A stretch of DNA of 64,000 bases from Flavobacterium oreochromis (lineage in GTDB: Bacteria > Bacteroidota > Bacteroidia > Flavobacteriales > Flavobacteriaceae), in the NCBI RefSeq assembly GCF_019565455.1, contig NZ_CP067377.1, positions 3,106,001 through 3,170,000 on the forward strand, in the 5' to 3' direction. Shown here one piece after another: positions 1-64,000 of the stretch. The translations under genes and the position numbers were made by a program. The notes under the pieces are model-generated. The model had not been told where the DNA came from and made no database searches. It saw nothing but the letters and a program-made list of their open reading frames with translations. The stretch's first letter is position 1. Each line of letters starts with the position of its first letter.

Positions 1-1257
1 ATTTTATTGTAAAAGTTTGAAATGAGCCTAAGCAATAGGCATATTTATTATTATGACTTATATACATATCTTTTAAGTCAGGATAATGGTCTTTATTTTT
101 TACAGTAGTATAAGGAAGAATTTTGATTATATTTCCATTTTCATCTAGTTTATAGGGAGTAATTACATTTGTTCCAAAACTTACAGCATAAAAATATTTA
201 TAATCGGGAGAAACTGCTGACCAACAAGCTTCATCTATATCAGAAGAGGCACCTGTTTCGTATCCATTAACTTTATTAATTTTAGAAGGGGTTATTTCTA
301 AAACTACTAATCCTTGATTGTCTTTTGTCTTTATAGGATTAAAATAAGTTACATACAATAGATTATCTTTTTTGCTCCAATTAAAACCTACTGCACCAAT
401 AAGACCTTCTTCTTCAAAAATTCTTTTGTTTGATGTTTGTCCATTGTTAAAATCATAAACAATTACTTGACTCGGTTTAACAAATTTAGGATTAGGATCT
501 TCAGTTAAAAAATGGGGGATTCCCCAAGTTGTTAGTGCTAACTGATTACCACTATGACTAAAAATGACTTGTACAGGACCACCCCAATAGCGTTTATAGC
601 TATCTAATAATTTATTAAAAGTCAGTTTTCCTGTTTTGGTATTAAATTTATAGAGTGATATATTTCTATCTTTATCAGAAAAGTCTTTTGATTTTAAGTT
701 TTGCTTAAAAAAGTCTTTATTAGGAAGTTCAATATATTTATCTCCATCATAAAGAGCTGTAGGAATTCCCCATTGATTTGCGACCACTACCCAATACGTA
801 TCTGATTCTGTCTTACTTTTAGTATATGTTATACTAACAGGTTTTTGACCATGAGATGTTACAATATCATTTTTTTTAAGATTCCCAGTTTTTCTATCTA
901 GGTTAAAAACAGATACAGTATTATCACCAGTATTAATAGTTAATAGATAATTATCAATTATCTGGATTGCTCCTTGACTGTCATAATCACCATTAACAGG
1001 CGCAGAACTATTAGAACCTCCTTTACCACCTGTTGGATATACTTTTTCTTTTTCTAATGTTCCATCAGAAAACCGTGCTAATTGTATAATTTGATTATCA
1101 TTTTCTCCGTTTGTTGAAGTATAGACATATCCTACTATTGTTTTTTCTTTTTTGAAATGATTTTGTTTTTTTTCTTGTTACAACTAATAAGAATGCTTGA
1201 AAGTAGAGTAATAATGATAAGACTATACTTATTTTTTATTGATAATTTAAACATCAT
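1..1257 (-). CDS. Lipoprotein with propeller-like repeats, runs off the left edge
   Basis: The frame opens at an ATG (1257; a second ATG lies at 1254) and encodes a short hydrophobic signal ending in a lipobox-like LISC, so an outer-membrane or periplasmic lipoprotein is expected. The body is polar and rich in Gly, Asn and Lys, with repeated stretches such as NGENDNQI and KPVSITYTKS that resemble the blades of lactonase-type beta-propellers; no catalytic motif is visible, so function is unknown. The frame changes by one base within the A-rich stretch 1141-1173 (runs of 8, 6 and 6 A on the coding strand). One extra A restores a single frame that stays open to base 1, where the gene is cut by the window edge. 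msrBA lies 27 bases upstream on the same strand, so the two may be co-transcribed. Confidence 0.7.
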
Positions 1258-1283
1258 TGTTATTCATTTTTAATTAGATCTAT

Positions 1284-2255
1284 TCATTTTAGTTTGTCTT
1301 GGTATAATTTTTTAAAATTTCTTAATTTAGGATTTATGATAGCAGAACAATAAACATTTTTATCTTTATTGTTATTGTAATAATTTTGATGATATTCTTC
1401 TGCTAAAAAAAAATGTTTAAACATTACTAATTCAGTATTGATAGGATCTTCTAATTTTTCTTGTATTTCTTTTATAACCTTCATAGCAGTTTCTTTTTCT
1501 TCTTTGCTTCTATAAAAAATTACACTTCTATATTGACTATCTGTACCAGTAGCTTGTGTATTTGTTATTGTGGGATCATGTGTAGTTAAGTGTATTTTTA
1601 TTAAATCAGCATATGAGATAATATTAGGATTATAAGTAAATTGAATTACTTCTGCATGACCTGTAATACCAGAAGAAACTTCACGGTATGTTGGATTAGA
1701 GATTTTTCCTCCACTATAGCCGTTTTCTACTTTTTCAACTCCTTTTAGTTGTTCAAAGACAGCTTCAGTACACCAAAAACATCCGCCACCAAAAGTTGCT
1801 TTTTTTAGATTATGATTAATTCTTTTTAATGCTATTATATTTATACAATAACGTAAACTACCAGACACAGAATCATCTCGATATACATGTCCTAGATGAG
1901 CATCACAAGTATTACAAGTAGCCTCTATTTGATAGAATCCGAAGGATCTATCTTTATGATAAGCAATTGTATTTTTTTTTTATAGGTTGGCTAAAAATAG
2001 GTAACGTACTATTACTGTTTAGTTTTTGATCAGAATCAAACAGTAATGTATTACAACAAATACAGTTATATTGTTCTGCTTCAAAAAAACTAGGCGACTC
2101 TGAGTTAAGTTTTTTTCACCAGCCTTTTTTCTAGTAAAAGAATATTGTTCTTTAGTTAAAATGTTTTTCCATTCCTGATCACTTTTTTCTATTCTTTTAT
2201 CAGGTATAGGATTACCTGTAGTTACAAACTTTATAATATCAAGCCACCTTAGCAT
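1284..2255 (-). CDS. msrAB: MsrB-MsrA methionine sulfoxide reductase fusion
   Basis: This enzyme repairs oxidised methionine: MsrA acts on the S- and MsrB on the R-sulfoxide. The N-terminal half is MsrB, with KSDQEWKNILTKEQY, a CxxC zinc pair (YNCICCNTLLFDS), a second pair (TCNTCDAHLGHVY) and the end motif RYCIN. The C-terminal half is MsrA, with the catalytic motif GGGCFWCTEAVF and GYSGG. The MsrB part is broken twice: a 7-T run at 2110-2116 needs one more base, and a 10-T run at 1972-1981 needs one fewer. With both corrected the product is 323 residues, normal for a fused MsrBA. MsrB-first order is common in Bacteroidota. The neighbours are a thioredoxin-fold protein and an AraC regulator on the same strand, which fits an oxidative-stress group. 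Confidence 0.9.
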
Positions 2256-2282
2256 TACTTTATTGTATAATAAGATTAAAAA

Positions 2283-4030: not shown

Positions 4031-5009
4031 ATGTATACATCTAGCGATATATTTGAAATTAGTTCTAAAAAAGAATTCGAAAAGCTTACTTTAAAAATTT
4101 TTCGTTTTCAGTATAATAATAATTTAGTTTACCAAAGGTTTTGTTCTTTATTAAAAAGGATGTAACTAATGTAAAAAGGATACAAGATATTCCTTTTTAC
4201 CCGTTCAGTTTTTTAAATCAAATGATATTTTAAGTTCGGGAGATGATATACAAATGATTTTTACAAGTAGTGGTACTACAGGTATGACTACTAGTAAACA
4301 TTGTGTTACAGATTTATCATTTTACGAAAAAAGTTATAGGCAAGCTTTTAAACAATTTTATGGTAATGTAGAAGATTATATTATTTTAGCATTATTGCCA
4401 TCTTATTTAGAAAGAGAAGGATCCTCTTTAATTTATATGGTAGATGATTTAATTCAGCTATCTAATAATACAGAAAGTGGTTTTTATTTAAATAATTATC
4501 AAGAGCTTGTAGAAAAATTAATTAGATTGGATAAAGAAGGACATAATATCTTGTTGATAGGTGTAACTTATGCTTTATTAGATTTGATAGAAGAACATAA
4601 ATTTAATTTAAAGAATACTATCATCATGGAAACTGGTGGTATGAAAGGACGTAGAAAAGAAATTATTAGAGAAGAATTACATACAATGCTTTGTGATGGT
4701 TTTGGGGTACCTGTAGTGCATTCAGAATACGGTATGACAGAGTTATTATCTCAAGCATATTCTTTAGGAAACGGAATTTTCGAATGTCCTGCATGGATGA
4801 AAATTATGATTCGAGATTCCGAAGATGCCTTAACATTACTTCCTGATGGTAAAGTGGGAGGGGTTAATATAATTGATCTTGCGAATATAAATTCATGCTC
4901 ATTTATAGCAACCCAAGATTTAGGGAAAATAATAGATCACAATTCTTTTGAAATCCTTGGACGATTTGATAATTCAGATATTAGAGGTTGTAATTTAATG
5001 GTCATATAA
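4031..5009 (+). CDS. LuxE-like acyl-protein synthetase/acyltransferase
   Basis: Members of the LuxE/acyl-protein synthetase family activate an acyl chain as an adenylate, like distant relatives of phenylacetate-CoA ligase. The ATP-binding loop FTSSGTTGMTTSKH and later ETGGMKGRRKEI, HSEYGMTELLSQAY and LGRFDNSDIRGC motifs are all visible. Starting at the ATG at 4031, two single-base breaks must be corrected: an A5 at 4153-4157 and a T5 at 4194-4198 each need one more base. The product is then 326 residues, the usual length of this family in flavobacteria. No luxC or luxD lies nearby, so this is an orphan enzyme and not part of a luciferase system; its substrate is unknown. rpe follows 94 bases downstream. 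Confidence 0.8.
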
Positions 5010-7435: not shown

Positions 7436-9603
7436 TTATTTAGGTTGTATATATTCTAATTGTTCTAAGCTTACTTTTGAAGTGAAAATTCCATAATTTA
7501 CAATGGCATTATTTTTTTCAATTTTATCTATTGTACCTATTGATTTTCCATCAATCATACGAACACGATCACCTACTTTAAGTATTACTTTAGGTTTGTT
7601 TTCTTCGATTTCCTTCTTTTTGATTTTTTCTTCTTTTTTCTTTTCTCTAATTTCCTCTATTTTTGTTTTTACTTCAGTTAAGATTTCTTTTTCAACTTTT
7701 TCTTTTACTTTTTTCTCTTTTAAAGTAATTTTTTTACGTTTTGAATTTTCAATTTCTACCATTTTCAAAAATTCACCAATCAAATCTTTTTTATTTTTGT
7801 CATTGAAATATTTTTCAGAAATATCATCAATTTTTTGTCCCATATAAATCAAGCGTTGATTACTATCATATAGTTCTTGATAACGTTCTAATTTATCTTG
7901 AATTTTAGCATTGATAGTTACCATTTTTTTACTTTCTTCACGTGCTTTACTTTCTTCTTCTTTAAGATTTTGAGAAGTTTTTTCTAATTTAGAACGTTCT
8001 TTTTGAAGGGAAGAAATTGTTTTGTCAAATCGTATTTTACTTCCTTCTACTTTCTTTTTGCACGGTTGATTAATCCAAATGGAATTCCATTTTTTTGTGC
8101 TACTTCAAAGGTAAAAGAACTTCCTGCTTGACCTATAATTAATTTATACATAGGTTCTAATGATTTTTCGTCAAAAAGCATATTAGCATTTGTAGCACTT
8201 GGTAATTCATTTGCTAACATTTTTAAGTTAGCATAGTGTGTTGTTATAATCCCAAAAGCTTCACGATGGTAAAATTCTTCTAAAAAAACTTCTGCTAGCG
8301 CACCACCTAGCTCTGGATCAGATCCAGTACCAAATTCATCAATTAAAAATAAAGTTTTAGAATTACATTTTTTTAAGAAATAATTCATGTTTTTCAAACG
8401 ATAACTATAGGTACTTAGGTGATTTTCAATAGATTGATTATCTCCTATATCAGTTAAAATTCGATCAAACAAGCATGTTTCACTACGTTCATGTACAGGA
8501 ATTAACATACCTGATTGTAACATTAATTGTAGTAAACCTACTGTTTTCATTGAAATAGTTTTTCCACCAGCATTAGGACCTGATATAATTACGATTCGCT
8601 TGGTTTCATCAAATTCAAAGGTTTGCGGATACGTTGTTTTCCCTTTTTCTTTATTCGTTAAAAGTAATATAGGATGAAAGGCTTCTCTTAGGAAAACTCT
8701 TCTTTGATCATTAATTGTTGGTAATAAACCATTTATTTTTAAAGCATATTTTGCTTTAGCAGAAATTACATCTATATCACTTAAAAAATCTTGATATTCT
8801 GTTAATAATCCGTGGAAGGGACGGATTGTATTCGTTAAATATTTTAAAATTTTAATAATTTCTTCTCGCTCTTCATATTCTAAGTTAGCTAATTCGCGAG
8901 AGTAACGAAGCGTGGATTCAGGTTCAATATAAGCAATACTACCTGTTTTAGAGCTACCTAATATAGCGCCTTTTACTTTTCTTCTATACATAGCCTGTAC
9001 AGCTAATACTCTGCGATTTTCTACTACAGTTTCACGAATTTCATCTAAATAGCCTAATGAATTGTATTGACTTAATGCCATTCCAAAACTTTGGTTAACT
9101 TTTCCTCGAACTAAATTCATATTTCTACGAATTTCTAATAGAGTAGGAGTAGCATCATCTTTTATTTCACCATATTTATCAAAAACAGTTTCAATAGATT
9201 TTGTAATTTCTTTTGTAATAGTTATTTGACTAGCTTTACGATATAGTGCAGGATAATAATCATCAAACTTTTTTAGGAAATTTAATAGAACATTTGTGTT
9301 TTCTGCTAATGAATGAATTTTTTTAAAGCTAGACGCTTCTAAAAAACTATCTTCAATAGCTAAAAATTTCAATTCATTTATTATAGGCTCAAAATTATGA
9401 CTAGGTAGAGCGTTGTTATTATCAAAAGAAGAACGGTATTCAGAAGTTTGTAATAGGACTTCCATTAATTCTTCCTTATTTTTATAAGGTGTTATGTTTA
9501 ATGTTTTTTTGACACCAATTTCGGTTATACAATATTCTGAAATGGTTTCTAAGACCGTTTGAAATTCTAAATCTTGTAAAGTTTTATTGTTAATCGAGAT
9601 CAT
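7436..9603 (-). CDS. mutS2: MutS2-family DNA-binding ATPase
   Basis: MutS2 proteins act on branched DNA or stalled ribosomes rather than mismatches. I place the start at 9603 (MISINNKTLQDLEF), where homologues begin, although the frame extends to 9666. The clamp and core region lead to Walker A (ISGPNAGGKTISMKT, about residue 330), Walker B (LFLIDEFGTGSDP) and the H-loop TTHYANLK. The frame breaks at the T5 run 8055-8059; adding one base joins it to a lysine/glutamate-rich coiled coil and a KOW-like end (VGDRVRMIDGKSIGTIDKIE), giving 722 residues. There is no C-terminal Smr nuclease domain, and the 77 bases before the next gene leave no room for one. The upstream neighbour is a glucosaminidase behind a strong hairpin. 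Confidence 0.92.
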
Positions 9604-9642
9604 TTTATTTTTTAATGTAGTCACAAATTTACAATTTAAATC

Positions 9643-9675
9643 AAAAAAAGGGGATTGAATTTTCAATCCCCTTTT
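9643..9675. terminator. Strong hairpin terminator
   Basis: AAAAGGGGATTGAA (9646-9659) pairs perfectly with TTCAATCCCCTTTT (9662-9675) around a 2-base loop, flanked by A and T tracts. It lies downstream of the minus-strand glucosaminidase and just upstream of mutS2, so it most likely ends the glucosaminidase transcript. Confidence 0.8.
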
Positions 9676-9699: not shown

Positions 9700-10151
9700 T
9701 TAATGCAAATTATGCTTTAAAATTGTTTTTTTAATTTTATTTCTCCAAAGAGTTGGTTTGGTTGAATATCCTGTTAGACTTATTTTTTTAACCAAAGTAA
9801 GTAGTCATCACTGCCTTTTAGATTCATATAGAATTTCTTTGATGCCATTTTTAGACAAAAATCTCTAAAGGAATCTTCAACACTTGAATATTGTTTGAAA
9901 CTGGACCAGGTTACTTGATTTTTTCCTTTTATCCCAAAGTGGTTGTTTAACTTTTTAGCAACTTTACTATTTCCATACCCTGATTCTACTATAGCGATAC
10001 TTAAAATAATAGATCTAGGTATTCCAAATTCAAATGATAATTTATCTGCTATTTCACCATATTCTTTTATATATGATTCATTTTGTGAATATCCACTACA
10101 AATACTAAGAAAGGTAAGGACAGATAAAAAGTAAAATTTTAGATTTTTCAT
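9700..10151 (-). CDS. Secreted glucosaminidase-domain protein
   Basis: This is a small peptidoglycan hydrolase of the glucosaminidase (GH73-like) family. The ATG at 10151 (an alternative is at 10157) starts a clear signal peptide, MKNLKFYFLSVLTFLSICSG. The mature part has AIVESGYGNSKVAKKLNNH with the catalytic Glu, then FGIKG and FKQYSSVEDSFRDF, typical of the family. The frame breaks at the T7 run 9783-9789; one extra base extends the product through LWLKKISLTGYSTKPTLW to a stop at 9700, giving 150 residues. It is transcribed divergently from the SGNH hydrolase at 10320. A role in cell-wall turnover is inferred. Confidence 0.82.
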
Positions 10152-10319
10152 AAGCATAAATTTCTTTATAATTAAGTTGGTATTACTTAAAATATTGACC
10201 AAATTTGCCAAATGATTAATAATTTTATTACTTCTTTTTTAAGAAGTAGGGAGCAAATTTAAAAAAAAGTTTTTTTAAATGTGCTTTTTATCAACAAATT
10301 AACTTAGAATTAATATTTT

Positions 10320-11545
10320 ATGTCTTTTAATAAGGTTGTTTTTTTATTTATTTTTTTTGTTTTACAGTCTGTTTCAGGACAAAATGCCTTGCTATTTCAA
10401 TATAAAAAAACAGATTCTTTATATCCTAAAATAGATTTAGATTTTGAAAAAAATATAATTATAAATGAAAATCATTTAAGACCTCTTTTTGCTAAACTTT
10501 TAAAATTGAAAGATGATAGTTTAAAACAGGTTTCATTTGTTCATATAGGAGATTCACATATACAAGCTGATATGGCTACTAAAATTATACGTACTGAGTT
10601 GCAACATTTTTTTGGTAATGCAGGTAGAGGTTTGATATTTCCTTATCAATTGGCTAAAAGTAATGCGCCATCAGATCTGATTTTTAGCTCAAATTCTAAC
10701 TGGAAAGGGAGTAGACTAATTAAAAAAATCCAGAGGTACCTTGCGGTATAAGTGGTTTTGCTATAGAATCTACAGAACCTAATTCTTTTATTAATTTTAA
10801 ATTTAGAGGAATAGAAGCATTTCATAAATTTGATAAACTCACTTTATTTACTAATAGTGAAATTAAAAATATAAATTTAGTAGAAGATACAGCAAAATGC
10901 AGTATTAAGGATGGTGTTTTAGATTTTAAATTTAATAATCTCCGTTCTGATTTTAATATTGTATGTAATGATTCTATTTGTACAAAATTATATGGTGTTT
11001 TTTTAGAAAACTCTATAGATAAAGGAATTATTTATAGTACTATAGGAGTAAATGGTGCTAAGTTTTCAGATTATAATTCAGAGACTTTATTTTGGGATCA
11101 AATTAAGCATATAAAATCTGATTGCTATATATTATCTATGGGAACAAATGAAGCACAAAATATTGTTTTAACTCCAGAAAGTTTTATAGATTCTATAAAA
11201 GAAACTATTGAAAAAATAAAGACTTTTAATCCTGATGCAGTTTTTATATTGTCTACACCTCCTATTTCTTTTTATAAAAAAGTAGTACCAAATAAAAAGC
11301 TTAAAGATTTTTCTGATGCAATTAGAGATTATTGTATTGAAAATCAAATTGCATTGTGGGATTTATTTGAAATATCAAATGGGTTGCAAGGAAGTTGTGA
11401 GTTTACAAGAAATCAACTTTTAGGAAATGATCTTATTCATTATTCTAGAAGAGGATATGAGTTACAAGGTTATTTATTTGTAGAAGCATTTGCAAAAAGC
11501 TGGAATAATTACTTAAATTCACTTTCTACGACTAATAAAAATTAA
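10320..11545 (+). CDS. SGNH/GDSL-family secreted hydrolase (acetylation locus)
   Basis: The product starts with a signal peptide (MSFNKVVFLFIFFVLQSVSG). The SGNH block I motif is in FVHIGDSHIQADM (about residue 78), block III is in ILSMGTNEAQN, and the C-terminal Asp/His block is in NDLIHYSRRGYELQG. The A7 run at 10722-10728 needs one more base; the gene is then continuous and encodes 408 residues. The GDSHIQAD form of block I is typical of SGNH proteins that sit beside MBOAT acyltransferases. Here the gene is convergent with the MBOAT and resembles the minus-strand SGNH gene on its far side. I infer transfer or removal of acetyl groups on a cell-surface glycan. Confidence 0.82.
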
Positions 11546-11602
11546 AAATATCTACTAGTTTATATTTTTAACTTTAAATATCGTAATATTTTTCTTTATA
11601 AA

Positions 11603-11645
11603 AAATCCCTGTTTTTAGACAAGTCTTGCTAAAAACAGGGGATTT
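11603..11645. terminator. Bidirectional hairpin between SGNH and MBOAT genes
   Basis: AAATCCCTGTTTTTAG (11603-11618) pairs with CTAAAAACAGGGGATTT (11629-11645) with a single bulged G, around a short loop that can itself pair (CAAG/CTTG). It lies between two convergent genes and is flanked by A and T tracts, as expected of a shared terminator. Confidence 0.75.
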
Positions 11646-11671
11646 ATATTTATTTTAAGCTATCTAAATTA

Positions 11672-13151
11672 TTAAAATTGCAAATAAATAGGCATTACAG
11701 CTTCAGAACTTTTAAAATAAGAGTACAAGAATATAAATAAAATCATAATAATCATATTAAAAACTAACGGAAGTTTTGTTTGTATTTTAATATATTTTTC
11801 ACTCCAATTGTTAGGTATTAAGTGTATTAAATATCCTATAACAATCATTAGTAGAGGTTGTTTATAATTTATTATGAATTCTTCTGCTCCTTCAAAACTA
11901 AACTGATTTACAATTTGATTTATAAAAGTCAAAGAAGTTTCTAAATTCTCTGCTTTAAAAAAGATCCAACAAAAACATACAAAATGAAATGTTATGAGGC
12001 CAAAGATAAGTTTAGAAACGAATTTAGGTAGAATATTAATTTTAGAAGTTATCTTAGTCCAAAATTTATTAATGATTAAGCCAAAACCATGTAAAGATCC
12101 CCAAATAATAAAATTCCAGCTTGCTCCATGCCAAAATCCACCAATAAGCATTGTTAAAAATAAATTAATGTTTGTTCTTAATTTACCTTTTTATTTCCTC
12201 CCATGGCTATATATAAATAATCACGTAACCAAGAGGATAAGGAAATATGCCATTTTCTCCAGAATTCTGTAAGAGAAGTACTTTGATAAGGAGATTCAAA
12301 GTTAGGAGGAATAGTAATCCCTAACCATTTAGAAATACCAATGGCAACATCGCTATATCCACTAAAATCACAATATATTACAATAGCATATCCATACAAA
12401 GCTATAAGGCATTCAAAACCATTATGTAAGTGAGGACCATCAAAAATATAGTTTACCAAATTAAGTGTGATATAATCAGAAATAATTAATTTTTTGATTA
12501 ATCCACTTACTATTAAGTAAAAGCCTTTTGAAAAATCTTCAGAACTAACATAATAATCATTTTTTAATTGAGGTATAAAATCCTTAGCTCTAACAATTGG
12601 TCCCATAACTAATTTTGGAAAAAGGATAAGAATAAAATATAATTTGCAATATTTTCTTCTGGTTTTATTTCTCCTTTATACACATCTACTGCATAACTAA
12701 TGTTTTCAAAGGTGTAAAATGAAATACCAATAGGGAGTAATATATGTACAGGATCAAGTTGAGTTAGATTTAGGCTATTTATAATTTCAATAAAGAAATT
12801 AGTGTATTTAAAGTAAAATAGTAGTCCTAGATTAAAAATAATACAAATAATTAGTAATAGTTTTTTTAAGGTTGCTTTAGATCTAGCTTTATATATGGCA
12901 ATTGAAAGTAGATAGTCAACAACAGCTGATCCTATTACTAAAAAAACGAAATTGCCACTTGCTTTGTAGAAAAAATAAAGCGAAAAAAAACTTAAAATAT
13001 AGGCCCTGCCTAAATAGTTTTTTCTTAGGATATAATAACAAATTATGAAAACTAAAAAAAAGTATACGAAGAAACCACTGTTAAAAAGTAGTGGGTTTTT
13101 AGGATCATAGAATAGCTGATCGATTATTTTATTGAAATCGAAAGTTAACAT
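11672..13151 (-). CDS. MBOAT-family O-acyltransferase
   Basis: A polytopic membrane O-acyltransferase of the AlgI/DltB type, which passes acetyl groups across the membrane. The diagnostic region is TEFWRKWHISLSSWLRDYLY and GGFWHGASWNFIIWG, containing the two conserved His residues, with the earlier motif FFPKLVMGPIVR. Two single-base breaks split the frame: the A5 at 12619-12623 and the T5 at 12188-12192 each need one more base. Corrected, it encodes 493 residues with about ten membrane segments, normal for the family. It starts 9 bases after the minus-strand SGNH gene, so the two are probably co-transcribed. Together with the SGNH genes it should form a glycan O-acetylation module. Confidence 0.92.
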
Positions 13152-13160
13152 TTTAGATAA

Positions 13161-14529
13161 TTAGTTTTTATTTTTTTGTTTTTTATTTTTTACTTTATCA
13201 AATTCTTTTTGAATTGATTTAAATATAGTTTTGGCTACAACTTTAGATCCTCTACTGTTAAAATGTATATAATCTTTACTTGCCATTGTAGGGATAGTAT
13301 CAACCCATTTTTTCATAATTCCTTTTCCTCCCATAGAAAGGAAAAGATTGTAAAAAGGAATTTTATTATCATAAGATAGTCTAGCTTGTGTTTTTATTAA
13401 ACTATCTATTCCTATAGCAGATTTCCATTCATTGTTGTATTTAAAAGCACGATCTGAACAACTAAAAATTAAAAAATCTGTTTTAGGCATTTCCTTTTTG
13501 AATTTTTTAATTAAAGGAGTCATTTTTTGATAATAATAATCGTAGTTTACATCATTAGGCCTAAACATTAGATTAACTCCATACTGAAAAACTATTAAAT
13601 CATAATAATTTTCTTGATTAAGTTTTTGTAATAGTTCTGTACTAATTTTGTCAAGCTCAACTCCTGTGATTCCTCTAAAAGAAAAATTATCCAATACAAT
13701 ACCATTTTCAGGTTCAAAACTTACTCCATAAATAGGAGTATTGGAAAATTTAGCTTTAAAGTGTATTCCGTTAGATGTTGATTTGTCTAGTAAAACTCTA
13801 TTGAAAGCCTCATTTGCATGATAATTCGTTTCAACACCATTGTGAGTGATAGAAATATCATTTCCTTTACCAAATAATAACCATTTTTCAAGAATTTGTG
13901 TACTATCCTTTTTAATTCTATTTCGTAAAGTAATATCTAAATCGGGACTAAAAAAGAATAGCCAGATAAGAAAACATTTTTCTCAGGATTTTGTTTAAAA
14001 TTAAAAGTTTCAAAAATCCCAGATGTTTTAGAGGTAGCAGTTCTTCTAAAATCAGAAGAAATAGAGTTTATAGGGACAAACCCTACACCCTTTTTTTTAT
14101 TAAAATATTCTTGCAACATTTCTCTAATATCCTGAGTCATTAAATCACCTTCTATTTGGCTATCCCCAAACCAAGCTATTCTGATTTTTGCCTTTTTATT
14201 CTGATATAATTCTGCTAATTTTTTAGATAAGTTTTCAAAAACAAAATTATTATTATCAGCATCAAAATCTGTAATGTTAGTTCCATTATAACTTTCAAAA
14301 ACAGTAAAGGTACTGTCTTGTTTCTGAATGGAATCTATTAAACTATTTTGATTTTTCTTCTTTTTTGATTATTTAGATTGACTATCTTATCACTTTGTAT
14401 ATCAGTAAATAAATCTACATTTTTGAAACTAGGATAATATTCAACAATATTTTTTGAGAAATAGGAAAGTCCAAAATAAGCAGATGTAACTGATAATACA
14501 AATATAAATACTTTATTATTACTGTTCAT
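13161..14529 (-). CDS. SGNH-family protein, membrane anchored, MBOAT partner
   Basis: I place the start at 14529 (MNSNNKVFIFVLSVTSAYFG), which gives a single N-terminal membrane anchor. The SGNH motif is IAWFGDSQIEGDLMTQDIRE near residue 100, followed by a beta-rich insert and a C-terminal catalytic block (SKDYIHFNSRGSKVVAKTIF). Breaks at the T6 run 14361-14366 and the A6 run 13950-13955 each need one more base; the corrected product has 456 residues. It ends 9 bases upstream of the MBOAT start, which suggests an operon. By analogy with AlgJ/AlgX- and PatB-type proteins it probably works on the periplasmic face, accepting or transferring acetyl groups delivered by the MBOAT. Confidence 0.83.
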
Positions 14530-14599
14530 TAGTGTTATTTGATATTCTATAAAACCGGGCAAAAGTATGGAAAAGTTATCATAAGTCTATAAGTTTTAA

Positions 14600-14607
14600 T
14601 ATTTTTG
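14600..14607 (+). promoter_or_regulatory. Candidate -7 promoter box before ung
   Basis: TATTTTTG matches the Bacteroidota -7 consensus TAnnTTTG and lies 10 bases before the ung ATG. A matching TTG at -33 is not evident, so the support is the single box and its position. Confidence 0.35.
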
Positions 14608-14617
14608 TAAGAAAAAA

Positions 14618-15283
14618 ATGGAAGTAAAAATTCATAATTCTTGGAGAGAAATTTTAAAAGAAGAATTTAATAAAGCATATTTTGAAAATCTTATTAATTT
14701 TGTTAAAAATGAGTATCAAATAGGACGCTGTTTTCCTAAAGGAAGTCAAATTTTTTCAGCATTTGATCATTGCCATTTTGATGATGTAAAGGTAGTGATA
14801 ATAGGGCAAGACCCTTATCATGGTTTAGGACAAGCTAATGGGTTGTGTTTTTCTGTAAATGAAGGTGTCTCTTTTCCTCCTTCTTTGATTAATATATTTA
14901 AAGAAATTGAATCAGATTTAAAAATTTCTATACCTTCATCAGGAAATTTAGAACGTTGGGCGGAACAGGGTGTTTTACTCCTAAATGCTACTTTAACTGT
15001 AAGAGAAAACACAGCTGGAAGCCATCAGAATAAAGGATGGGAATTATTTACAGATGCTGTTATTCAAAAAATATCAGATGAAAAAGAAAATGTCGTTTTT
15101 TTACTTTGGGGAGGGTTTGCAAAGAAAAAAGGAGCAAAGATAGATAGGACTAAACATTGTGTTTTAGAAACAGGTCATCCATCTCCTTTAAGTGCTAATC
15201 GTGGATTATGGTTTGGGAATAGGCATTTTAGTAAAACGAATGACTACTTGAAATCTATTAATAAAGAAGAAATTAAGTGGTAG
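14618..15283 (+). CDS. ung: Uracil-DNA glycosylase, family 1
   Basis: The enzyme removes uracil from DNA as the first step of base excision repair. The 221-residue protein carries the water-activating motif GQDPYHGLGQANGLCFS with the catalytic Asp, the uracil-recognition segment LLLNATLTVRE, and the minor-groove intercalation loop GHPSPLSANRG with the catalytic His. It is intact and of standard length. The gene is convergent with the transglutaminase-like gene, only 2 bases apart, so transcripts from opposite strands may overlap. Confidence 0.97.
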   Translation: MEVKIHNSWREILKEEFNKAYFENLINFVKNEYQIGRCFPKGSQIFSAFDHCHFDDVKVVIIGQDPYHGLGQANGLCFSVNEGVSFPPSLINIFKEIESDLKISIPSSGNLERWAEQGVLLLNATLTVRENTAGSHQNKGWELFTDAVIQKISDEKENVVFLLWGGFAKKKGAKIDRTKHCVLETGHPSPLSANRGLWFGNRHFSKTNDYLKSINKEEIKW

Positions 15284-15285
15284 TT

Positions 15286-48086: not shown

Positions 48087-48819
48087 ATGAATATTGAACC
48101 AAATATATTTTTACTTCTCATTGGAATTATTGGATTTTTATATGCTAGTGTAGGTCATGGGGGAGCAAGTGGTTATTTAGCGCTAATGAGTTTATTCTCA
48201 TTTTCACCTGAAATAATGAAACCTTCAGCATTAGTTTTAAATATATTAGTTTCTTCAATTGCTTTTATATTTTTTTACAAATCAAAACAATTTCGTTGGA
48301 GGTTGTTTTATCCTTTTGCGATTACTTCAATCCCATTTTCTTTTATGGGAGGTTTTTTTAAAATAGATACTCATTTATATAGAGCTTTTTTAGGTATTAT
48401 TTTACTATTTGTAGTAATAAAATTATTAGGTTTTGGTAAAAGGAAAAGGAAGAAATAAAACCTATTGAATTTAAAAAGCTCTTTTAATAGGGGCTATAAT
48501 AGGTTTTATATCAGGTATTTTAGGTATAGGAGGAGGCGTGGTTTTAAGTCCCGTAATTTTATTATTAGGCTGGGGGAGAATGAAAGAAACAGCTGCTGTT
48601 TCAGCTTTATTCATATTAGTTAATTCAGTATCAGGATTTTTAGGCTTTTTAGCTAATAATGGTCAATTTCCGTTACAAATGTCTAGTATAATATTAGTTG
48701 TTCTTTTTGGAGGAACTTTAGGTGCTTTTTACGGTAGTGAAAAATTTAATAATATAACCCTAAAATATATTTTATCTTTTGTACTAGTTCTTGCTTCTGT
48801 TAAATTAATAATGATTTAA
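48087..48819 (+). CDS. TauE/SafE-family (TSUP) permease
   Basis: A small membrane permease of the TSUP family, with the two repeated GxG segments GFLYASVGHGGASGYLALMS and GFISGILGIGGGVVLSPVIL. Two single-base deficits split the raw frame: one in an A4 run (48439-48442 or 48445-48448) and one in the A5 run 48474-48478. The corrected product has 244 residues and about eight helices. TSUP proteins export sulfite or other sulfur anions, and some are linked to other anions. Between moeA and mobA, a role in anion balance during Moco or nitrate use is inferred; no substrate can be assigned. Its stop overlaps the mobA ATG (TAATG). Confidence 0.83.
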
Positions 48820-49649: not shown

Positions 49650-50741
49650 ATGAAGATTTCAAAACGTTATAATCGTCAAATAAGTTTAGAAGAAATAGGG
49701 GTAATAGGTCAAAAAAAATTACAATTAGCTAAAGTCCTTGTTGTTGGGGCAGGAGGGTTAGGGTGTCCTGTATTGCAAAATTTAGCAGCAATGGGAATAG
49801 GTACATTGGGTATTATAGACGGGGATCTTATAGAGGAAACTAATTTGCATAGACAGCTTTTATATACTTTTGAAGATTGTGGACAAAGCAAATCAAAAAT
49901 AGCTAAAAATGTATTAAAAAGGAGTAATCCTAACTTAGATATTCATTGTTACTCAGTGTATTTAAGTGAGTTTAATGCTTACGAATTAATTAAGCAATAT
50001 GATGTAATTGTAGATTGTACAGATGAAATTAAAATTCGCTATTTAATTAATGATATATGTTTAGTTACAAAAAAACCTTTTGTTTATGCATCTATTCATA
50101 AATTCCAAGGACAATTAAGCGTTTTTAATTATGATAATGGCCCTAGTTACAGATGTTTATTTCCAGAACAAGAAAGTAGTATTATTCCTAATTGTGTAAC
50201 AGGAGGTGTTTTAGGAGTATTACCTAATATTTTAGGAGCCATGCAAGCGTCTGAAGTTATTAAAATTATACTAAAAATAGGGAAAATAGCATCAGGAAGA
50301 GTACTGGTTTATGATTTATTATTACAAAACACTATTGAAATAGAATTTTTAAAAAATGAAAGACAAATTAAATTAGGTTATCAAAAAGGCCTAAATTTAA
50401 AGGAAACTGTTCCTCTTATTGCTGATCTAACGGGAATAGAATTTATTCAAACCTGTCAGTCTCAATCTTTATCAGAATTCAAATTTATAGATTTAAGAGA
50501 AAGATATGAAGAACCTAAGTTACCATTTCAATTTATAGAATTGATTCCTTTAAACCAATTATATGAAGTATGTAAGGATTGGGATAAAAATGGAAAAATA
50601 ATTCTTATATGCCAGAGCGGAGTTAGAAGTTCTAGCGCAAAAATTAGACTCAAAGAATTAGGTTTTAAAAATGTAAGCCAATTAAAAAAAGGAATTAACT
50701 CTATTCTTAATTTATTAGAAAATGAATACAATAAAGTATAA
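49650..50741 (+). CDS. moeB: MoeB adenylyltransferase with C-terminal rhodanese domain
   Basis: MoeB/ThiF-like enzymes adenylate the C-terminus of MoaD. Residues 1-235 are the E1-like domain: GAGGLGCPVLQNLAAMG (nucleotide loop), ETNLHRQLLY, and VDCTDEIKIRYLIND. Residues 255-363 are a rhodanese domain with the catalytic loop ICQSGVRSSSAK, which can carry the sulfur. The zinc ligands of classical MoeB look altered: the first Cys of the usual CYRCLFP is Ser (GPSYRCLFP) and a second C-x2-C is not seen. It is 363 residues and intact, and overlaps moaE by 20 bases. Confidence 0.93.
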   Translation: MKISKRYNRQISLEEIGVIGQKKLQLAKVLVVGAGGLGCPVLQNLAAMGIGTLGIIDGDLIEETNLHRQLLYTFEDCGQSKSKIAKNVLKRSNPNLDIHCYSVYLSEFNAYELIKQYDVIVDCTDEIKIRYLINDICLVTKKPFVYASIHKFQGQLSVFNYDNGPSYRCLFPEQESSIIPNCVTGGVLGVLPNILGAMQASEVIKIILKIGKIASGRVLVYDLLLQNTIEIEFLKNERQIKLGYQKGLNLKETVPLIADLTGIEFIQTCQSQSLSEFKFIDLRERYEEPKLPFQFIELIPLNQLYEVCKDWDKNGKIILICQSGVRSSSAKIRLKELGFKNVSQLKKGINSILNLLENEYNKV

Positions 50742-51161
50742 AGTATTTATTGAAGGAGCCATTCAACCTGAATTTATAGCTACTTCAATTACTAAACATC
50801 AAACTAAGACAACTATAGGAGCCCATCAAATATTTTTAGGACAAGTACGTGCAGATCTTGTTGAAAATAAGAAAGTAATAGCTATAGATTATTCTGCATA
50901 TGAGGAAATGGCAGCGGAAAAACTAAATGAAATTAGAGAAAATACTTTTCAAAAATTTAATATAACCTGCATGCATATTTATCATAGTATAGGAAAAGTA
51001 AAAGTAGGTGAAATTTGTTTATTCGTATTTGTTTCAGCACAAAGAAGGAAAATTACTTATCAAGCTTTAGAGTATATAGTTGAAGCAATAAAAAGGAAGT
51101 ACCGATTTTTGGAAAAGAAATTCTTGAGGATCAAAGTTATATATGGAAAAAAAATCAATAA
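50722..51161 (+). CDS. moaE: Molybdopterin synthase large subunit
   Basis: MoaE with MoaD makes molybdopterin from cyclic pyranopterin. It shows IGAHQIFLGQVRAD, DYSAYEEMAAEKLNEI, CMHIYHSIGKVKVGEICL and SAQRRKITYQALEYIVEAIK. As read, the frame runs on into MoaC because the A5 run 51090-51094 lacks one base. With it the C-terminus becomes KKEVPIFGKEILEDQSYIWK, a typical MoaE ending, and a stop follows at 51159-51161, two bases before the MoaC start. The corrected length is 146 residues. The apparent fusion is therefore an artefact. Confidence 0.92.
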
Positions 51162-52074: not shown

Positions 52075-52077
52075 AAT

Positions 52078-53154: not shown

Positions 53155-54626
53155 ATGAGCTCTTTAAAAGAATCACACAAAATTTTATTTTTAAATACAC
53201 TTGCCTTTACAATATGCTTTGCTTGTTGGACATTAAATGGTGTATTAGTAACATATCTAGTTGATAAAAGTATTTTTAATTGGAATATAGTTCAAGTAGG
53301 GTGGTTGTTAGGTATTCCTATTTTATCAGGTTCAATTTTTAGATTACCTATTGGAATTTTAACTGACAAATATGGAGGGAAAATAGTTTTTTCAACTCTT
53401 TTATTTTTATGTGCTATTCCTTTATTTGCCTTGACTACAGCCACTACATTCTCTGCATTTGCTATATTAAGTTTTTTGTTTGGATTGGTAGGAACTAGTT
53501 TTTCAGTAGGAATAGGATACACTTCAGTATGGTATCCAAAAGAATGGCAAGGTAGAGCACTGGGAATTTTTGGTATGGGAAATGCAGGTGCTGCTATAAC
53601 TACTTTTATTGCTCCTACATTATTAAACAAATTTTCAGAAACAGATGCTCAAAATGGATGGAAAATGTTACCTATAGTATATGCTATTGTTTTAGTAATA
53701 ATAGGATTAGCATTTTTAGTATTTGCTAAGAATAAGAAAATAGAAACCTCTTCTAAAACAATATCAGAGCAGTTACAACCATTAAAGAAAGTAAGAGTTT
53801 GGCGTTTTGGAATCTATTATTTTTTAGTTTTTGGCTGTTTCGTAGCCTATTCACAGTGGTTATTGCCCAACTTTATGAATGTATATCATACTAGTTTAGT
53901 AACAGGAGGATTATTTGCTACAATGTTTAGTTTACCATCTGGAGTAATCAGAGCCTTTGGAGGGTATTTATCTGACAAATTTGGAGCTAGAAAAGTAATG
54001 TATTGGGTTTTAGGATCATCAGTAATTATAAGCTTTTTGCTAATGTTTCCTAAAATGGAAATCACTACAGATGGTCCTGGAGTTTTAGCAACAACAAATG
54101 GAATCGCTCAAATACATAATAATAGTATACGAATTAATAATAAAGAACATAAAATAAATCTTAAGAAAGAAAGTCACATAAAAGAAAGTGTTCTATTACC
54201 AGTAAAATCCTCTTGGCAAGAAATTATAATTAAACAAAATCAAGAAGTAAAGAAAAAGAATTATTAGCAAAAGGAATTACACAAATTAAGTTTAGTGCTA
54301 ATATGTGGGTATACCTTCTATTAGTCATATTAATAGGAATTGCTTGGGGAATAGGGAAAGCAGCTGTATATAAACATATTCCTGAATATTTTCCTAATCA
54401 AGTAGGATTAGTAGGTGGTATGGTAGGTCTTATAGGTGGTTTAGGTGGATTTTTAGGTCCTATTATTTTTGGTTATTTACTTAACACTACAGGTTTATGG
54501 ACAAGTTCTTGGATATTTATTTTTATTATTTCAAGTATTTGTTTGATATGGATGCATAATACTATTATTAAAATTTTAAGAATAAAAACACCTGAATTTT
54601 CAAGAGATATAGAACACGATCATTAA
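53155..54626 (+). CDS. narK: NarK-type nitrate/nitrite transporter 1
   Basis: A major facilitator superfamily protein of the nitrate/nitrite porter group. It has the MFS loop RLPIGILTDKYGGK, IGYTSVWYPKEWQGRALGIF and GMGNAGAAITTF, the first nitrate-signature region, plus AFGGYLSDKFGARKVMYW. An unusual hydrophilic insert (about residues 305-385) precedes the last four helices. The A5 run 54253-54257 lacks one base; correcting it joins the C-terminal part GLVGGMVGLIGGLGG (second nitrate signature). The corrected length is 490 residues. It is followed by a second narK after 18 bases, as in NarK1-NarK2 pairs. Confidence 0.9.
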
Positions 54627-57320: not shown

Positions 57321-59536
57321 ATGGCAAAATTACCAATACCAATAGAAAAAATTATAGAAATTTTTGGTCCGCATTTAAATTATGCCCCTAAAGATGGTTA
57401 TATAGGAAGAGATGAACCAGATGATGTTGTAGAAACACATTGTTGTTTTTGTGGTATGCAATGCGGAATTAAACTTTTAGTAAAAGATAATAAAGTAGTA
57501 GGTTTTGACCCTTGGAAAGAATTTCCATTTAATGAAGGAAGATTATGCCCTAAAGGTGTTCAAAGATACCTCCAAAATAATCACCCAGATCGTTTATTAA
57601 ACCCAATGCTTCGAGTAGAAAATAAAGGTTTTATTAATACCACTTGGGAAGATGCTATGAGTAAAACCGTATCTGAAATAAAAAGAATTCAAAATACGTA
57701 TGGAAATGATGCTTTTTCCATGCTTTCAGGGGTTTCTTTAACTAATGAAAAAAGTTACTTAGTTGGAAAATTTGCTCGTGTAGCACTTAAAACTAAAAAT
57801 TTAGATTATAATGGACGCTTGTGCATGGTAAGTGCAGGAGCAGGTAATAAAAAAGCCTTTGGTCTAGATAGAGGCTCTAATAATTATACTGATTTAGAAC
57901 ATGCAGAAGTTATAATTGTAGCTGGAGCTAATGTTAGTGAAACATTCCCTACATTAACCCATTGGATATGGAAAGCAAGAGATAATGGAGCTAAATTAAT
58001 AGTTGTTGACCCTAGAGTAATTCCATTAGCTCGTACCGCTGATATTCATCTTGATGTATTACCTGGAACAGATTCAGCTTTATATGGAGCTATGTTAAAA
58101 TATTTAGTTGATCATGATATGCTTGATCATGATTTTATTAATAATCATACCTCAGGCTTTCAAGAAACGATAGATGCAGTTAAAGATTATACCTTAGATT
58201 GGGCAGAACAAATAACAGGTATCAAAAAAGAAAAAATAGAAGCAGCAGCTAAACTTTGGGGAAAAGCCAAAACTTCGTTTTTATTACATGCTAGAGGAAT
58301 TGAACACCATTCAAAAGGAGTTGATAATGTTTTAGGCTGTATTAATCTTGTTTTAGCTACTGGTAGAATTGGAAAACCTTATTGTGGATATGCTACCATT
58401 ACAGGTCAAGGAAATGGACAAGGAGGAAGAGAACATGGACATAAATGTGATCAATTACCAGGTAATAGAGATATTGAAAACCCTGAACACAGAAAATATA
58501 TTTCAGATATTTGGGGAATTAATGAAGCTGACTTACCAGGAAAAGGACTCTCAGCTTATGAAATTATTGAAGCTATTCACAGAGGAGAAATAAAAGGCTT
58601 ACTTTCTATTTGTTTTAATCCCTTAGTTTCTTTACCTAATAGTAATTATGTCCGTGAAGCCTTAGAAAAACTAGAATTTTATGTATGTATAGATTTCTTT
58701 TTAAACGAAACAGCTCGACACGCTAATATTGTTTTAGCAGGATCATTACAAGAAGAAGAAGATGGTACAACTACTTCAGCAGAAGGTAGAGTAATTAGAA
58801 TTAGACAGGCTGTAACTCCTCCAGGAAATGCTCGTAAAGATTCTGAAATACTCCTAGAATTAGCTGATCGGTTAGGAGTTAAAAATAAATTTTCTTTTGA
58901 AAATAGTGAAGCAATATTTAATGAATTAAGAATTGCTTCTAAAGGAGGGACCGCTGATTATTACGGAATTAGTTATAAAAAATAGAAGAAAACATGGGCA
59001 TATTTTGGCCATGTCCTTCAGATGATCATCCTGGTACACCTAGACTTTGGGAAGATAAAAAATTTAAAACTCCAGATGGAAGAGCTCATTTTAATCCAGC
59101 TCCTTATAAATTACCAGGAGAAGTAACAGATACACAATATCCAATTACATTAACAACAGGAAGAGTTGTTTCACAATACTTAAGTGGTACACAAACTAGA
59201 AGAATAGGTAAATTAGTAGACCAATATCCAGAACCATTATTAGAAATACATCCAGAATTAGCAAGAAAATATAATATTCAAGAACGCGAATTGGTAAAAG
59301 TTTCTACCCGCCGAGGTGAAGGTATATTTCCAGCAAATATTGTAGAAACTATTCGGAAAGATACTGTATTCATTCCTTACCATTGGCCAGGAGAAAAATC
59401 AGCTAATCTACTTACACCTGGAACTTTAGACCCCATATCAAAGATTCCTGAATTTAAAGTATCAGCTTGTAAATTAGAGCCTTTAAAAGAGATAGCTCCT
59501 AATTCATCAATTACAAAAGCTTATGCAAGTAAATAA
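57321..59536 (+). CDS. Molybdopterin nitrate reductase catalytic subunit (Nas/Nap type)
   Basis: A molybdopterin oxidoreductase related to NasA/NasC, NarB and NapA. The N-terminal [4Fe-4S] motif is C41-x2-C44-x3-C48-x27-C76 ([12 protein letters not shown] and GRLCPKG). The Mo ligand is Cys168 in [13 protein letters not shown], the type seen in periplasmic and assimilatory enzymes, not the Asp of Nar[21 protein letters not shown] is a strongly conserved cofactor loop. The A6 run 58977-58982 lacks one base; correcting it gives 738 residues, including the C-terminal cofactor-binding domain with [19 protein letters not shown]. No Tat signal is present, so the enzyme is probably cytoplasmic. A formate dehydrogenase cannot be ruled out, but the two NarK genes favour nitrate. 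Confidence 0.87.
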
Positions 59537-60133: not shown

Positions 60134-60642
60134 ATGTCAAAAGAAAGTAATATAAACAAAAATTGGAAGAAAGATTTCCCTATTCATAAACAAGAAGCTA
60201 CTCAAGTAAGCAGACGTGATTTTGCTAAATTTTTAACCCTTGTTTCAGGGGGATTAATGATAGGTAGTGGGCTAGTAGCAGCAAAAGCTTATTGGTTCCC
60301 AAAAAAGAAATAGAAGGAGAACAATTTATATGCAATAAAAATGATATTCCTGTAGGAGGAACTAAAGCTTTTCAAATTAAAGATTGCGATATACCGTATA
60401 TTCTTATACACTTAGAAGATGGTACATTTAGAGCATATGAACAAAAATGTACACATTTATCTTGTGCTGTATATTATAAACCTGGTTCAGGTCAAATCAT
60501 TTGTCCTTGTCATGAAGGTCTCTTTGATGCTAAAACAGGAGAAGTTTTAGCAGGGCCACCTCCTAGACCTTTACCACAACTAGCAGTAATAGAAAAAGGA
60601 GAAAGTCTATTTGTTAAAGCAATAAACTCGCAAACTACTTAA
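60134..60642 (+). CDS. Tat-exported Rieske [2Fe-2S] protein
   Basis: The N-terminus has a twin-arginine motif (QVSRRDFAKFLTL) followed by a hydrophobic segment (SGGLMIGSGLVAAKAYW), so the protein is exported by Tat and kept as a membrane anchor. The Rieske cluster motifs are CTHLSCAVY and CPCHEGLFD (C-x-H and C-x2-H). The raw frame ends early at the A6 run 60301-60306, which lacks one base; corrected, it encodes 169 residues. In this place it resembles the Rieske subunits of haloarchaeal-type nitrate reductases and may take electrons from quinol. How it would talk to a cytoplasmic catalytic subunit is unclear. Confidence 0.87.
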
Positions 60643-61773: not shown

Positions 61774-61866
61774 AGTGATTTAAATTTAATTTATTTTTGG
61801 GGTTTATAATTATTGAATAATTCAACGAGACAAATATAAACAAAATTTTGAATATCATACAAAATA

Positions 61867-62202
61867 ATGAATGAATTTGGAGATTTAGGAGTGCGATTTA
61901 ATAGATATTTAGTATCAAAGGGACTTGGCGTTAATCAGATTGCCAGAATATTAGAGCTATCAGGTAGTCAAATTAGTAATATTAAAAATGGAAAAGTTTT
62001 TGGAACAGACAAAATGTTCAAAATATTGAATACTTTTACTGATTTAGATGCTAATTGGCTATTTCGTGGTGAATCTATGGAACATCCAGAAGTTGATATC
62101 AATAAATTAGACTATATTATTGAGTTGCAAAAGGAGCGAATAATTGATTTGAAGAAAGAAAATGCAGAATTAAAAAGATTATTAAAAATGAAGACTTTTT
62201 AA
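61867..62202 (+). CDS. XRE-type helix-turn-helix protein with coiled-coil tail
   Basis: A 111-residue DNA-binding protein. The HTH is LGVNQIARILELSGSQISNI followed by KNGKVFGTDKMFKILNTF, and the C-terminal 30 residues (ELQKERIIDLKKENAELKRL) form a heptad-like coiled coil, probably a dimerisation helix. The WLFRGESM segment recurs in phage- and XRE-type regulators of Bacteroidota. It faces recG convergently with a 19-base gap and is intact. Confidence 0.87.
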   Translation: MNEFGDLGVRFNRYLVSKGLGVNQIARILELSGSQISNIKNGKVFGTDKMFKILNTFTDLDANWLFRGESMEHPEVDINKLDYIIELQKERIIDLKKENAELKRLLKMKTF

Positions 62203-62221
62203 TAAAATTGAATTTTTATCT

Positions 62222-64000
62222 TTAGCTTATATAATTCCATATATTTTTTTTCTTAGTTAATTCTATGAATACATGCTTTAGTTTTTGGTGAGCTGGTTTT
62301 TCCATTGTGGGATCATCTTTCAATAACCGAATTGCATGATGCCTTGCTAATTGTAAGATATCACGATCTTTTACTAAATCTGCAATTTGTAAATTTAAGA
62401 CTCCGCTTTGTTGTGTACCCATAATATCACCTGGTCCACGAAGTTTTAAGTCAACTTCTGAAATTTCAAAACCATCATTAGTTTTACACATAGTTTCCAT
62501 TCGTATTTTACTTTCATTGCTTAGTTTAACTCCCGTCATCAAGATACAATAACTTTGCTCAGCTCCTCGACCTACACGACCTCTCAATTGGTGTAGTTGT
62601 GATAATCCAAAACGTTCTGCACTTTCAATAATCATGACTGAAGCATTAGGAACATTAACACCTACTTCAATTACCGTCGTAGCAACCATGATGTTTGTTT
62701 TTCCTTGAGCAAAACGGTTCATTTCTTCTTCTTTTTCTGCTGGCTTCATTTTACCATGTACTATAGAAATAGCATATTTAGGTAGAGGGAAATCCCTAGA
62801 AATACTTTCATATCCATCCATTAAATCTTTATAATCCATAGATTCTGATTCTTGAATTAAAGGATAGACAATATATATTTGTCTTCCCTTATCAATTTCA
62901 TCACGCATAAATTTCCATACTTTCAGACGATTGCTATCGTAGCGATGTACTGTTTGTATAGGTTTTCTACCAGGAGGTAACTCATCAATAACGGATACAT
63001 CAAGATCGCCATATAAGCTCATAGCTAAAGTCCGAGGAATAGGAGTAGCTGTCATCACTAAAACATGAGGTGGAAGTGTAGCTTTTTTCCATAATTTACT
63101 ACGTTGTTCAACTCCAAAACGATGTTGTTCATCTATAATAGCTAAACCTAAATTATTAAATTGTACTTTATCTTCTAATAAAGCATGGGTTCCTATTAAT
63201 ATGTCTAAATTTCCATTTTCTAGTTCTTGATGAATAATTTTTCTATCTGAAGTTTTAGTTGAGCCTGTTAATAGTTTTATATTTATATTCAATGGTTTAG
63301 CTAATTCTGTAATACCATTAAAATGTTGAGTAGCTAAAATTTCAGTAGGAGCCATAATACAAGCTTGAAATCCATTATCGAGTGCTAATAGCATACTCAT
63401 TAAGGCAACAATTGTTTTTCCAGAGCCTACATCTCCTTGCAATAAACGATTCATTTGGGCAGGATTTCCCAAATCATTTCGAATTTCTTTTAATACTTTT
63501 TTTTGAGCATTTGTTAAATCAAAAGGTAAATATTTAGTATACATTTCATTAAAGTAATAACCTACTTTTTCAAAAGGATGTCCTTTTATTTTATGTTTCC
63601 GTACTAAATTTTTAGAAATTAATTGCAATTGAATAAAAAAGAGTTCTTCAAATTTTAATCTAAATTGTGCTTTTTGTAATAATTCTTGGCTTTTTGGAAA
63701 ATGAATATTAAATAATGCACTATTTTTAGGAATAAGTTGTAATTCTCCCAAGAGATGAGAAGGTAATGTTTCGCTAAATAAAGTATGAGTTTCAATAAAA
63801 AGCTGTTGCATCATTTTATTGATTACCTTATTAGAGATCCCCTTAGTTTGTAATTTTTCAGTTGAAGGATAAACAGCTTGCATTGCAGTACGTAAATTTG
63901 CTTTGTGCTCTTCCAATAATTCCATTTCAGGATGTGGCATAGAAAATTGATTATTAAAAGAATTCATTTTTCCAAATATTACATAGGGTGTGTTAATTTT
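62222..64000 (-). CDS. recG: ATP-dependent DNA helicase RecG, cut by the right edge
   Basis: RecG remodels stalled replication forks and Holliday junctions. The window holds the last 592 residues; the frame stays open to base 64000, so the N-terminus is missing. The wedge region ends in the NTINKINTP-like stretch leading to FSMPHPEMELLEE. The helicase core shows Walker A in LLQGDVGSGKTIVALMSM, the DEQHRFGVEQR box, TATPIPRTLAMSLYGDLD, and the C-terminal motifs TTVIEVGVNVPNASVM and QLRGRVGRGAEQSYC. The reading frame is uninterrupted in this window. Confidence 0.95.
   Translation of the reverse strand, partial: KINTPYVIFGKMNSFNNQFSMPHPEMELLEEHKANLRTAMQAVYPSTEKLQTKGISNKVINKMMQQLFIETHTLFSETLPSHLLGELQLIPKNSALFNIHFPKSQELLQKAQFRLKFEELFFIQLQLISKNLVRKHKIKGHPFEKVGYYFNEMYTKYLPFDLTNAQKKVLKEIRNDLGNPAQMNRLLQGDVGSGKTIVALMSMLLALDNGFQACIMAPTEILATQHFNGITELAKPLNINIKLLTGSTKTSDRKIIHQELENGNLDILIGTHALLEDKVQFNNLGLAIIDEQHRFGVEQRSKLWKKATLPPHVLVMTATPIPRTLAMSLYGDLDVSVIDELPPGRKPIQTVHRYDSNRLKVWKFMRDEIDKGRQIYIVYPLIQESESMDYKDLMDGYESISRDFPLPKYAISIVHGKMKPAEKEEEMNRFAQGKTNIMVATTVIEVGVNVPNASVMIIESAERFGLSQLHQLRGRVGRGAEQSYCILMTGVKLSNESKIRMETMCKTNDGFEISEVDLKLRGPGDIMGTQQSGVLNLQIADLVKDRDILQLARHHAIRLLKDDPTMEKPAHQKLKHVFIELTKKKNIWNYIS

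Follow-up and report, generated by a model that had tools for sequence, protein, structure and literature searches.

Homopolymer miscounts in the assembled sequence as the very probable source of frame breaks in a Flavobacterium oreochromis chromosome

Single-base insertions and deletions (indels) in runs of one base are described both for uncorrected sequence and for bacterial genomes with otherwise sound genes. According to the Homopolish paper, uncorrected nanopore errors are mainly homopolymer indels that shift reading frames (PMC8011154), and the Kastor paper describes the same error type in long-read drafts (PMC12007338). Blochmannia vafer has eight genes with frameshifts in such tracts, and the paper on it mentions polyA tracts of at least nine bases (PMC3017870). 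Here, we analyze a stretch of 64,000 nucleotides from Flavobacterium oreochromis (“the window”), in which an earlier note, made from the letters alone, had listed 32 single-base frame breaks, all at A/T runs, and had interpreted them mainly as homopolymer error in the assembly. Our analysis supports this interpretation through the ribosomal RNA (rRNA) genes, an insertion sequence (IS), genes expected to be indispensable, and sampled stretches of the chromosome, and we conclude that the breaks almost certainly arose as errors of the assembly and do not represent a biological feature.

The window resembles long-read-only bacterial assemblies, as the two papers describe them, in its single-base homopolymer indels, the prevalence of deletions, the shifted coding frames, and the many false pseudogenes (PMC8011154, PMC12007338). 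It differs from the Kastor example, where most deletions follow four or five identical bases (PMC12007338), in that A/T runs of four are unshrunk here and the step comes at six. As in Blochmannia and Buchnera, the genome is AT-rich, and the indels lie in A or T runs of otherwise sound genes (PMC3017870). Unlike the eight genes of B. vafer, 54 of 184 sampled orthologues are affected here, the runs are short, and rRNA genes are involved as well (PMC3017870).

The window comprises bases 3106001-3170000 of a single contig of 3,540,003 bases (a 3.54 Mb chromosome), and the genome (G000) was sampled over 864 kb, namely, the window and 40 further stretches, with a GC content of about 30% in the sampled part. 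The nearest named relative in the scan was Flavobacterium columnare NBRC 100251 (G040; 93% identity for one oxidoreductase), a species that causes losses in fish farms (PMC10132118). DNA identity to F. columnare is 84% across window positions 47316-60876 and about 86% over most of 3951-23264, with one stretch at 79%. Three further relatives, G012, the complete genome G010, and G022, were used for comparison. Breaks were counted mainly by tblastn, using F. columnare open reading frames (ORFs) of at least 100 amino acids as queries and set cut-offs for orthologues, and the control consisted of six tblastn pairings among F. columnare, G012, and G010 (256 queries, with the same DNA used in both directions).

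With F. columnare queries, the 54 broken orthologues carried 62 breaks over 203.9 kb, and the studied genome also showed 21 breaks over 67.6 kb with G012 queries and 13 over 63.3 kb with G010 queries. Across the six control pairings, no break was found in 273.8 kb. The breaks are not specific to the window, which held 19 in 41.5 kb tested vs 43 in 160 kb for the rest of the sample. The controls were taken from the tblastn counts because DNA alignments with G012 and G010 (about 75% identity) show many net-shift clusters between the relatives as well (0.28-0.61 per kb), compared with 0.49 per kb between F. columnare and the studied genome. Since a G000 query can itself be faulty, G000 ORFs were excluded as control queries; they gave nine breaks over 193.5 kb in F. 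columnare, one over 65.0 kb in G012, and none over 60.5 kb in G010. The assembly quality figures, completeness of 95.67 and contamination of 3.19 vs 99-100 and 1 for G010 and G012, are lower and higher, respectively, as split genes would give.

The broken genes were named by applying NCBIfam to the F. columnare proteins. They include rpoC, nusG, lepA, uvrC, the ribonuclease HII gene, an sdhC-family gene, and the glycine C-acetyltransferase gene, and the glycyl-tRNA synthetase gene carries two breaks. An ftsX-like gene and an undecaprenyl-diphosphate phosphatase-like gene are broken too, with both names below the NCBIfam cut-off. Of these, rpoC, nusG, and glycyl-tRNA synthetase are expected to be indispensable. 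The rpoC break sits at a G run; therefore, the statement that all breaks lie at A/T runs is limited to the window list, for which it stands, and it does not extend to the rest of the genome, where G/C runs are affected in rpoC and the rRNA genes. The window contains 842 A/T runs of at least five bases vs 16 G/C runs of at least five, and the dominance of A/T among the breaks goes with the AT-rich genome.

We also looked for decay accompanying the breaks, which the earlier note had reported to be missing. The tblastn alignments of the studied genome contain 72 in-frame stops. Genes with a called break hold 43 of them, 35 near the alignment end, and genes without one hold 29, including 14 in the gene that spans 7576-9675 and has a break not called by tblastn. 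Most in-frame stops are explained by alignments extending beyond a break. Together with a conservation of the broken genes that is not significantly lower, this roughly upholds the earlier statement, apart from a few isolated stops considered below.

To compare copies of one sequence within the assembly, we used seven full 16S and seven full 23S copies, leaving out partial or N-bearing ones, among them an incomplete 16S copy where the contig begins, with 99.6% identity and four gaps. The 16S copies differ at four substitution and four indel columns, and the 23S copies at no substitution and seven indel columns. All 11 indel columns involve one base within a run of C, G, T, or A, and some of these runs have just two bases. 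In the complete relative G010, no substitution or indel column was found among four 16S and four 23S copies. One 23S G run is six long in four of the seven copies and seven long in three, and it is seven long in G010. Other genomes can have differing rRNA copies too, as G022 illustrates: its six 16S copies have 25 substitution and nine indel columns, and its six 23S copies have 54 and 35 (L286-L306), which reflects either true heterogeneity or a second faulty assembly. Because its rRNA copies differ at so many columns, G022 is unfit as a clean control.

A Transposase_mut insertion element provides a second set of replicates, with 16 copies at 100% identity after rounding (L307-L322); IS-like matches of at most 74% identity and short pieces were excluded, and copy L322 aligns only to 1320. 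In one C-T6-G run of the transposase gene, seven copies have T6 and nine have T5, and a second run is seven long in 14 copies and eight long in two. Besides these two run-length columns, the copies show four substitution columns, and the T5/T6 column is the most variable. The T5/T6 state is out of step with a substitution shared at column 1106 (T6 in L314; T5 in L319, L320, and L321). The copy in the window has an open frame of 400 amino acids, and the syntenic place in F. columnare (G040:C173, about 21570-21745) holds no such insert. Altogether, copies of one repeat, whether 23S, 16S, or IS, differ mainly in run length, and the 16S and 23S copies carry the errors into untranslated sequence.

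These results bear on the alternative that the run lengths are real and that full-length protein is made by slippage of RNA polymerase or the ribosome at A/T runs, as reported for Buchnera and Blochmannia. Such a rescue is described in AT-rich endosymbionts (PMC3017870), and the little extra decay in the broken genes would agree with it. Reading-frame slippage cannot excuse the indels in the untranslated rRNA, however. Slippage by bacterial RNA polymerase is reported to require an uninterrupted run of at least seven T, or of more A (PMC6260861), whereas 21 of the 32 listed runs in the window are six bases or shorter. In addition, the indels are not restricted to A/T runs in rescuable genes, as the rRNA genes and the rpoC break at a G run demonstrate, and a 3.54 Mb genome with about 30% GC in the sample is no reduced endosymbiont genome. 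The shortened runs described below read as A (20) or T (6) on the coding strand and fall in each of the three codon phases. Tolerance by slippage, which the earlier note had kept as its less likely option, is therefore not supported, and we consider it extremely improbable. Programmed -1 frameshifting at A-AAA-AAG was likewise rejected, since T runs and all phases are shortened too.

The dependence on run length was tabulated for F. columnare runs flanked by bases that match in the studied genome. A/T runs of two, three, and four are unchanged (0/6105, 0/2381, and 0/1093). Among runs of five, 1 of 401 is shortened by one, and among runs of six, 15 of 155 are, with none of either length lengthened; three of 56 runs of seven are shortened and one grew, and one of 12 runs of eight is shortened and one grew. 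For G/C runs, two of 198 runs of three are shortened and none of 41 runs of four or five. Looser matching gives similar results (3/617 for runs of five and 18/224 for runs of six). In four such tables between relatives, seven runs differ, all of length 2-4. The DNA alignment with F. columnare contains 73 single-base shifts, 58 of them deletions and 15 insertions, and 65 of the 73 have a run of at least five within a 22-base stretch, vs 19% of random stretches. The indels are thus concentrated at homopolymers, become more frequent in longer runs, and are mostly deletions.

The base next to the run also matters. Among runs of at least six, 19 of the 97 in which A precedes G (or T follows C) are short vs 7 of the 238 others (Fisher p 1.5e-6), and this type of flank occurs at 20 of the 32 listed places in the window vs 208 of its 804 A/T runs of 5-7. 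Shortening of A6 by codon phase was 1/67 for phase 1 vs 8/64 and 4/39 for the other two, and the lower rate in phase 1 may follow from the next base. We regard the sharp step at six, the flank rule, and the prevalence of losses as marks of measuring error.

The same table addresses the possibility that the breaks are real recent mutations, caused by mass pseudogenization or a hypermutator lineage and too young for further decay. Mutators without mismatch repair gain run-length indels, a MutS-domain gene in the window is itself broken, and significant extra decay is missing, as this explanation would have it; the gene in question (7576..9675), however, we take to be MutS2-like rather than the repair MutS. 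Replication slippage is expected to rise smoothly with run length, whereas the shortened fraction jumps from 1/401 to 15/155 between runs of five and six, and runs of seven are no worse (3/56). Genes expected to be indispensable are broken, and the rRNA copies are affected. We thus regard recent mutation, like slippage, as having next to no chance of accounting for the breaks.

Our preferred explanation, in contrast to both, is that an under-polished consensus miscounts runs of identical bases and would mostly drop one base from A/T runs of at least six, above all where an A run precedes G (on the other strand, where a T run follows C). Long reads were presumably used, given a single contig that runs across the rRNA operons, and the base caller or the polishing would be at fault; the single contig and the error type are what suggest the platform. 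At nearly all these sites, the real chromosome would very probably have intact genes.

For the window itself, the sequence at all 32 listed places was inspected. The longest run is always of A or T and has four bases at three places, five at 12, six at six, seven at six, eight at three, and ten at two. The list held up in large part: 25 breaks are confirmed by comparison, five are partly supported, and two (1141-1173 and 35726) had no usable comparison. Specifically, 19 coincide with tblastn frame breaks found with F. columnare protein queries, and four further places (4194, 8055, 48439, and 51090) are seen by DNA alignment or run comparison with F. columnare. The break at 33210 was detected with the G012 protein, and the one at 8055, which tblastn missed with the F. 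columnare protein, was detected again with that of G010. At 1972, one SelR domain is divided between two pieces in different frames. In the DNA alignment, the breaks at 48439 and 48474 appear as a single cluster that comprises two events and has a net shift. Four net shifts in the DNA alignment (5870, 18815, 21155, and 52073) all lie within 6% of the gene end and were not counted as breaks.

The partly supported places (2110, 40211, 40294, 42286, and 42501) were assessed by domain searches of the frame pieces. Acyl_transf_3 is divided between the outer pieces around 40211/40294, with no match in the 41-amino-acid middle piece; therefore, at least one frame change occurs there. Around 42286/42501, DUF349 matches all three pieces, and because DUF349 occurs several times in the outer pieces, a match per piece is no proof of a split. 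At 2110, the outer piece has no SelR match. The features of the window are as follows.

1..64000, no strand: whole stretch, representing an assembly in which single-base run-length errors are scattered (19 tblastn frame breaks over the 41.5 kb of coding sequence tested)
1287..2282, minus strand: MsrB/MsrA fusion gene, seemingly divided at 1972 and 2110 into three pieces; SelR 21-63 and 62-114 in two pieces of different frame, then PMSR; outermost piece without SelR match
4031..5006, plus strand: gene with two breaks, 4153 and 4194 (F. columnare orthologue as tblastn query; at 4194 the F. columnare run has one base more)
7576..9675, minus strand: MutS-domain-V gene broken at 8055 (F. columnare DNA alignment, tblastn with G010, Pfam MutS_V, row of in-frame stops past the break)
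9703..17103, both strands: genes broken at 9783 and 10722 (plus strand) and at 12188, 12619, 13950, 14361, 16000, and 16789 (tblastn with F. columnare)
17658..18256, minus strand: gene broken at 17928 (DNA alignment, tblastn)
24898..26260, plus strand: Transposase_mut insertion element, with 16 near-identical genome copies as internal replicates
27274..27932, plus strand: gene broken at 27689 (tblastn)
29680..31180, minus strand: gene with an insertion-type break at 30180 (tblastn, the same with F. columnare as with G012 proteins; DNA alignment)
31822..33521, both strands: genes broken at 32095 and 32502 (minus strand) and at 33210 (plus strand, HAD-like hydrolase) (tblastn, domain search)
37094..38327, minus strand: gene broken at 37873, insertion type (DNA alignment, tblastn)
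39470..40568, minus strand: acyltransferase gene, seemingly divided at 40211 and 40294 into three pieces; Acyl_transf_3 3-75 / 104-320 across the outer pieces
41578..43438, minus strand: gene for a DUF349 protein, seemingly divided at 42286 and 42501 into three pieces; DUF349 matches in all three
48087..48816, plus strand: gene with the break pair 48439 and 48474 (DNA alignment, tblastn)
50722..51153, plus strand: gene broken at 51090 (DNA alignment)
53155..54623, plus strand: gene broken at 54253 (DNA alignment, tblastn, run comparison)
57321..59533, plus strand: molybdopterin oxidoreductase gene with a break at 58977, the first piece carrying the Molybdopterin domain and the second Molydop_binding; F. 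columnare orthologue in one open frame (L009 10001-12217)
60134..60630, plus strand: Rieske-domain gene broken at 60301 (tblastn, Pfam)

Four places (1972, 16789, 30180, and 37873) had been said to need a base removed. Three of them (16789, 30180, and 37873) are indeed insertions relative to F. columnare. All four lie at runs of seven or ten and have the other kind of flank, T, which fits the possibility that a minority of the listed breaks, for example at runs of 7 to 10, represent true pseudogenes or phase-variable runs among the errors. The broken genes include one for an acyltransferase, and the few isolated stops elsewhere may be real. Long runs, however, are where sequencing errs most, and nothing separates the long-run sites from errors without reads. 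We therefore give a genuine minority a modest chance. We hold it somewhat less likely still that the A-then-G bias reflects a real property of the DNA, such as a base modification disturbing base calling, together with a few true phase-variable or pseudogene sites among the runs of 7-10.

Several observations weigh against assembly error as the source of the breaks or limit how firmly it can be asserted. The density of single-base shifts is uneven, ranging from 0.06 to 0.67 per kb among stretches with more than 10 kb tested. Only 42 of the 73 single-base shifts were placed inside a run of at least three by the aligner's gap placement; most of the others adjoin a run, and five of the 73 have no run of at least five nearby in either genome. 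The control at A/T runs of at least six comprises only 45 comparisons between relatives, none of them changed. In the IS, two A6/T6 runs that share this flanking base, G, are invariant among copies. The rpoB gene is intact, in keeping with the average rate. Median amino-acid identity to F. columnare is 84.7% for broken and 87.0% for unbroken genes (p = 0.10), and a few isolated stops (two in L214 and one in L226), in genes without a called break, are unexplained. Finally, error at any single site is probable rather than directly proved, the evidence being comparative.

This assembly seems to be the one that represents its species; therefore, false breaks would be carried into gene catalogues, where they would show up as short proteins and spurious pseudogenes. 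Coding sequence carries about 0.3 breaks per kb, which extrapolates to about 900 in the whole chromosome. A read-free test of the kind used here, combining rRNA and IS copies as replicates with a run-length comparison with a sister species, could be used to screen other assemblies.

Two further observations concern the sample and the window. The density of single-base shifts spans about tenfold, with 0.62-0.67 per kb in L227 and L232 vs 0.06-0.09 per kb in L216 and L226. In the window, the neighbor of the gene broken at 17928 (18272-18796) shows no break by tblastn, and Pfam matches at 46832-60630 identify MoaA, an MFS transporter, the molybdopterin oxidoreductase, a 4Fe-4S protein, and the Rieske protein, a region that we take to be a molybdenum-cofactor and nitrate cluster.

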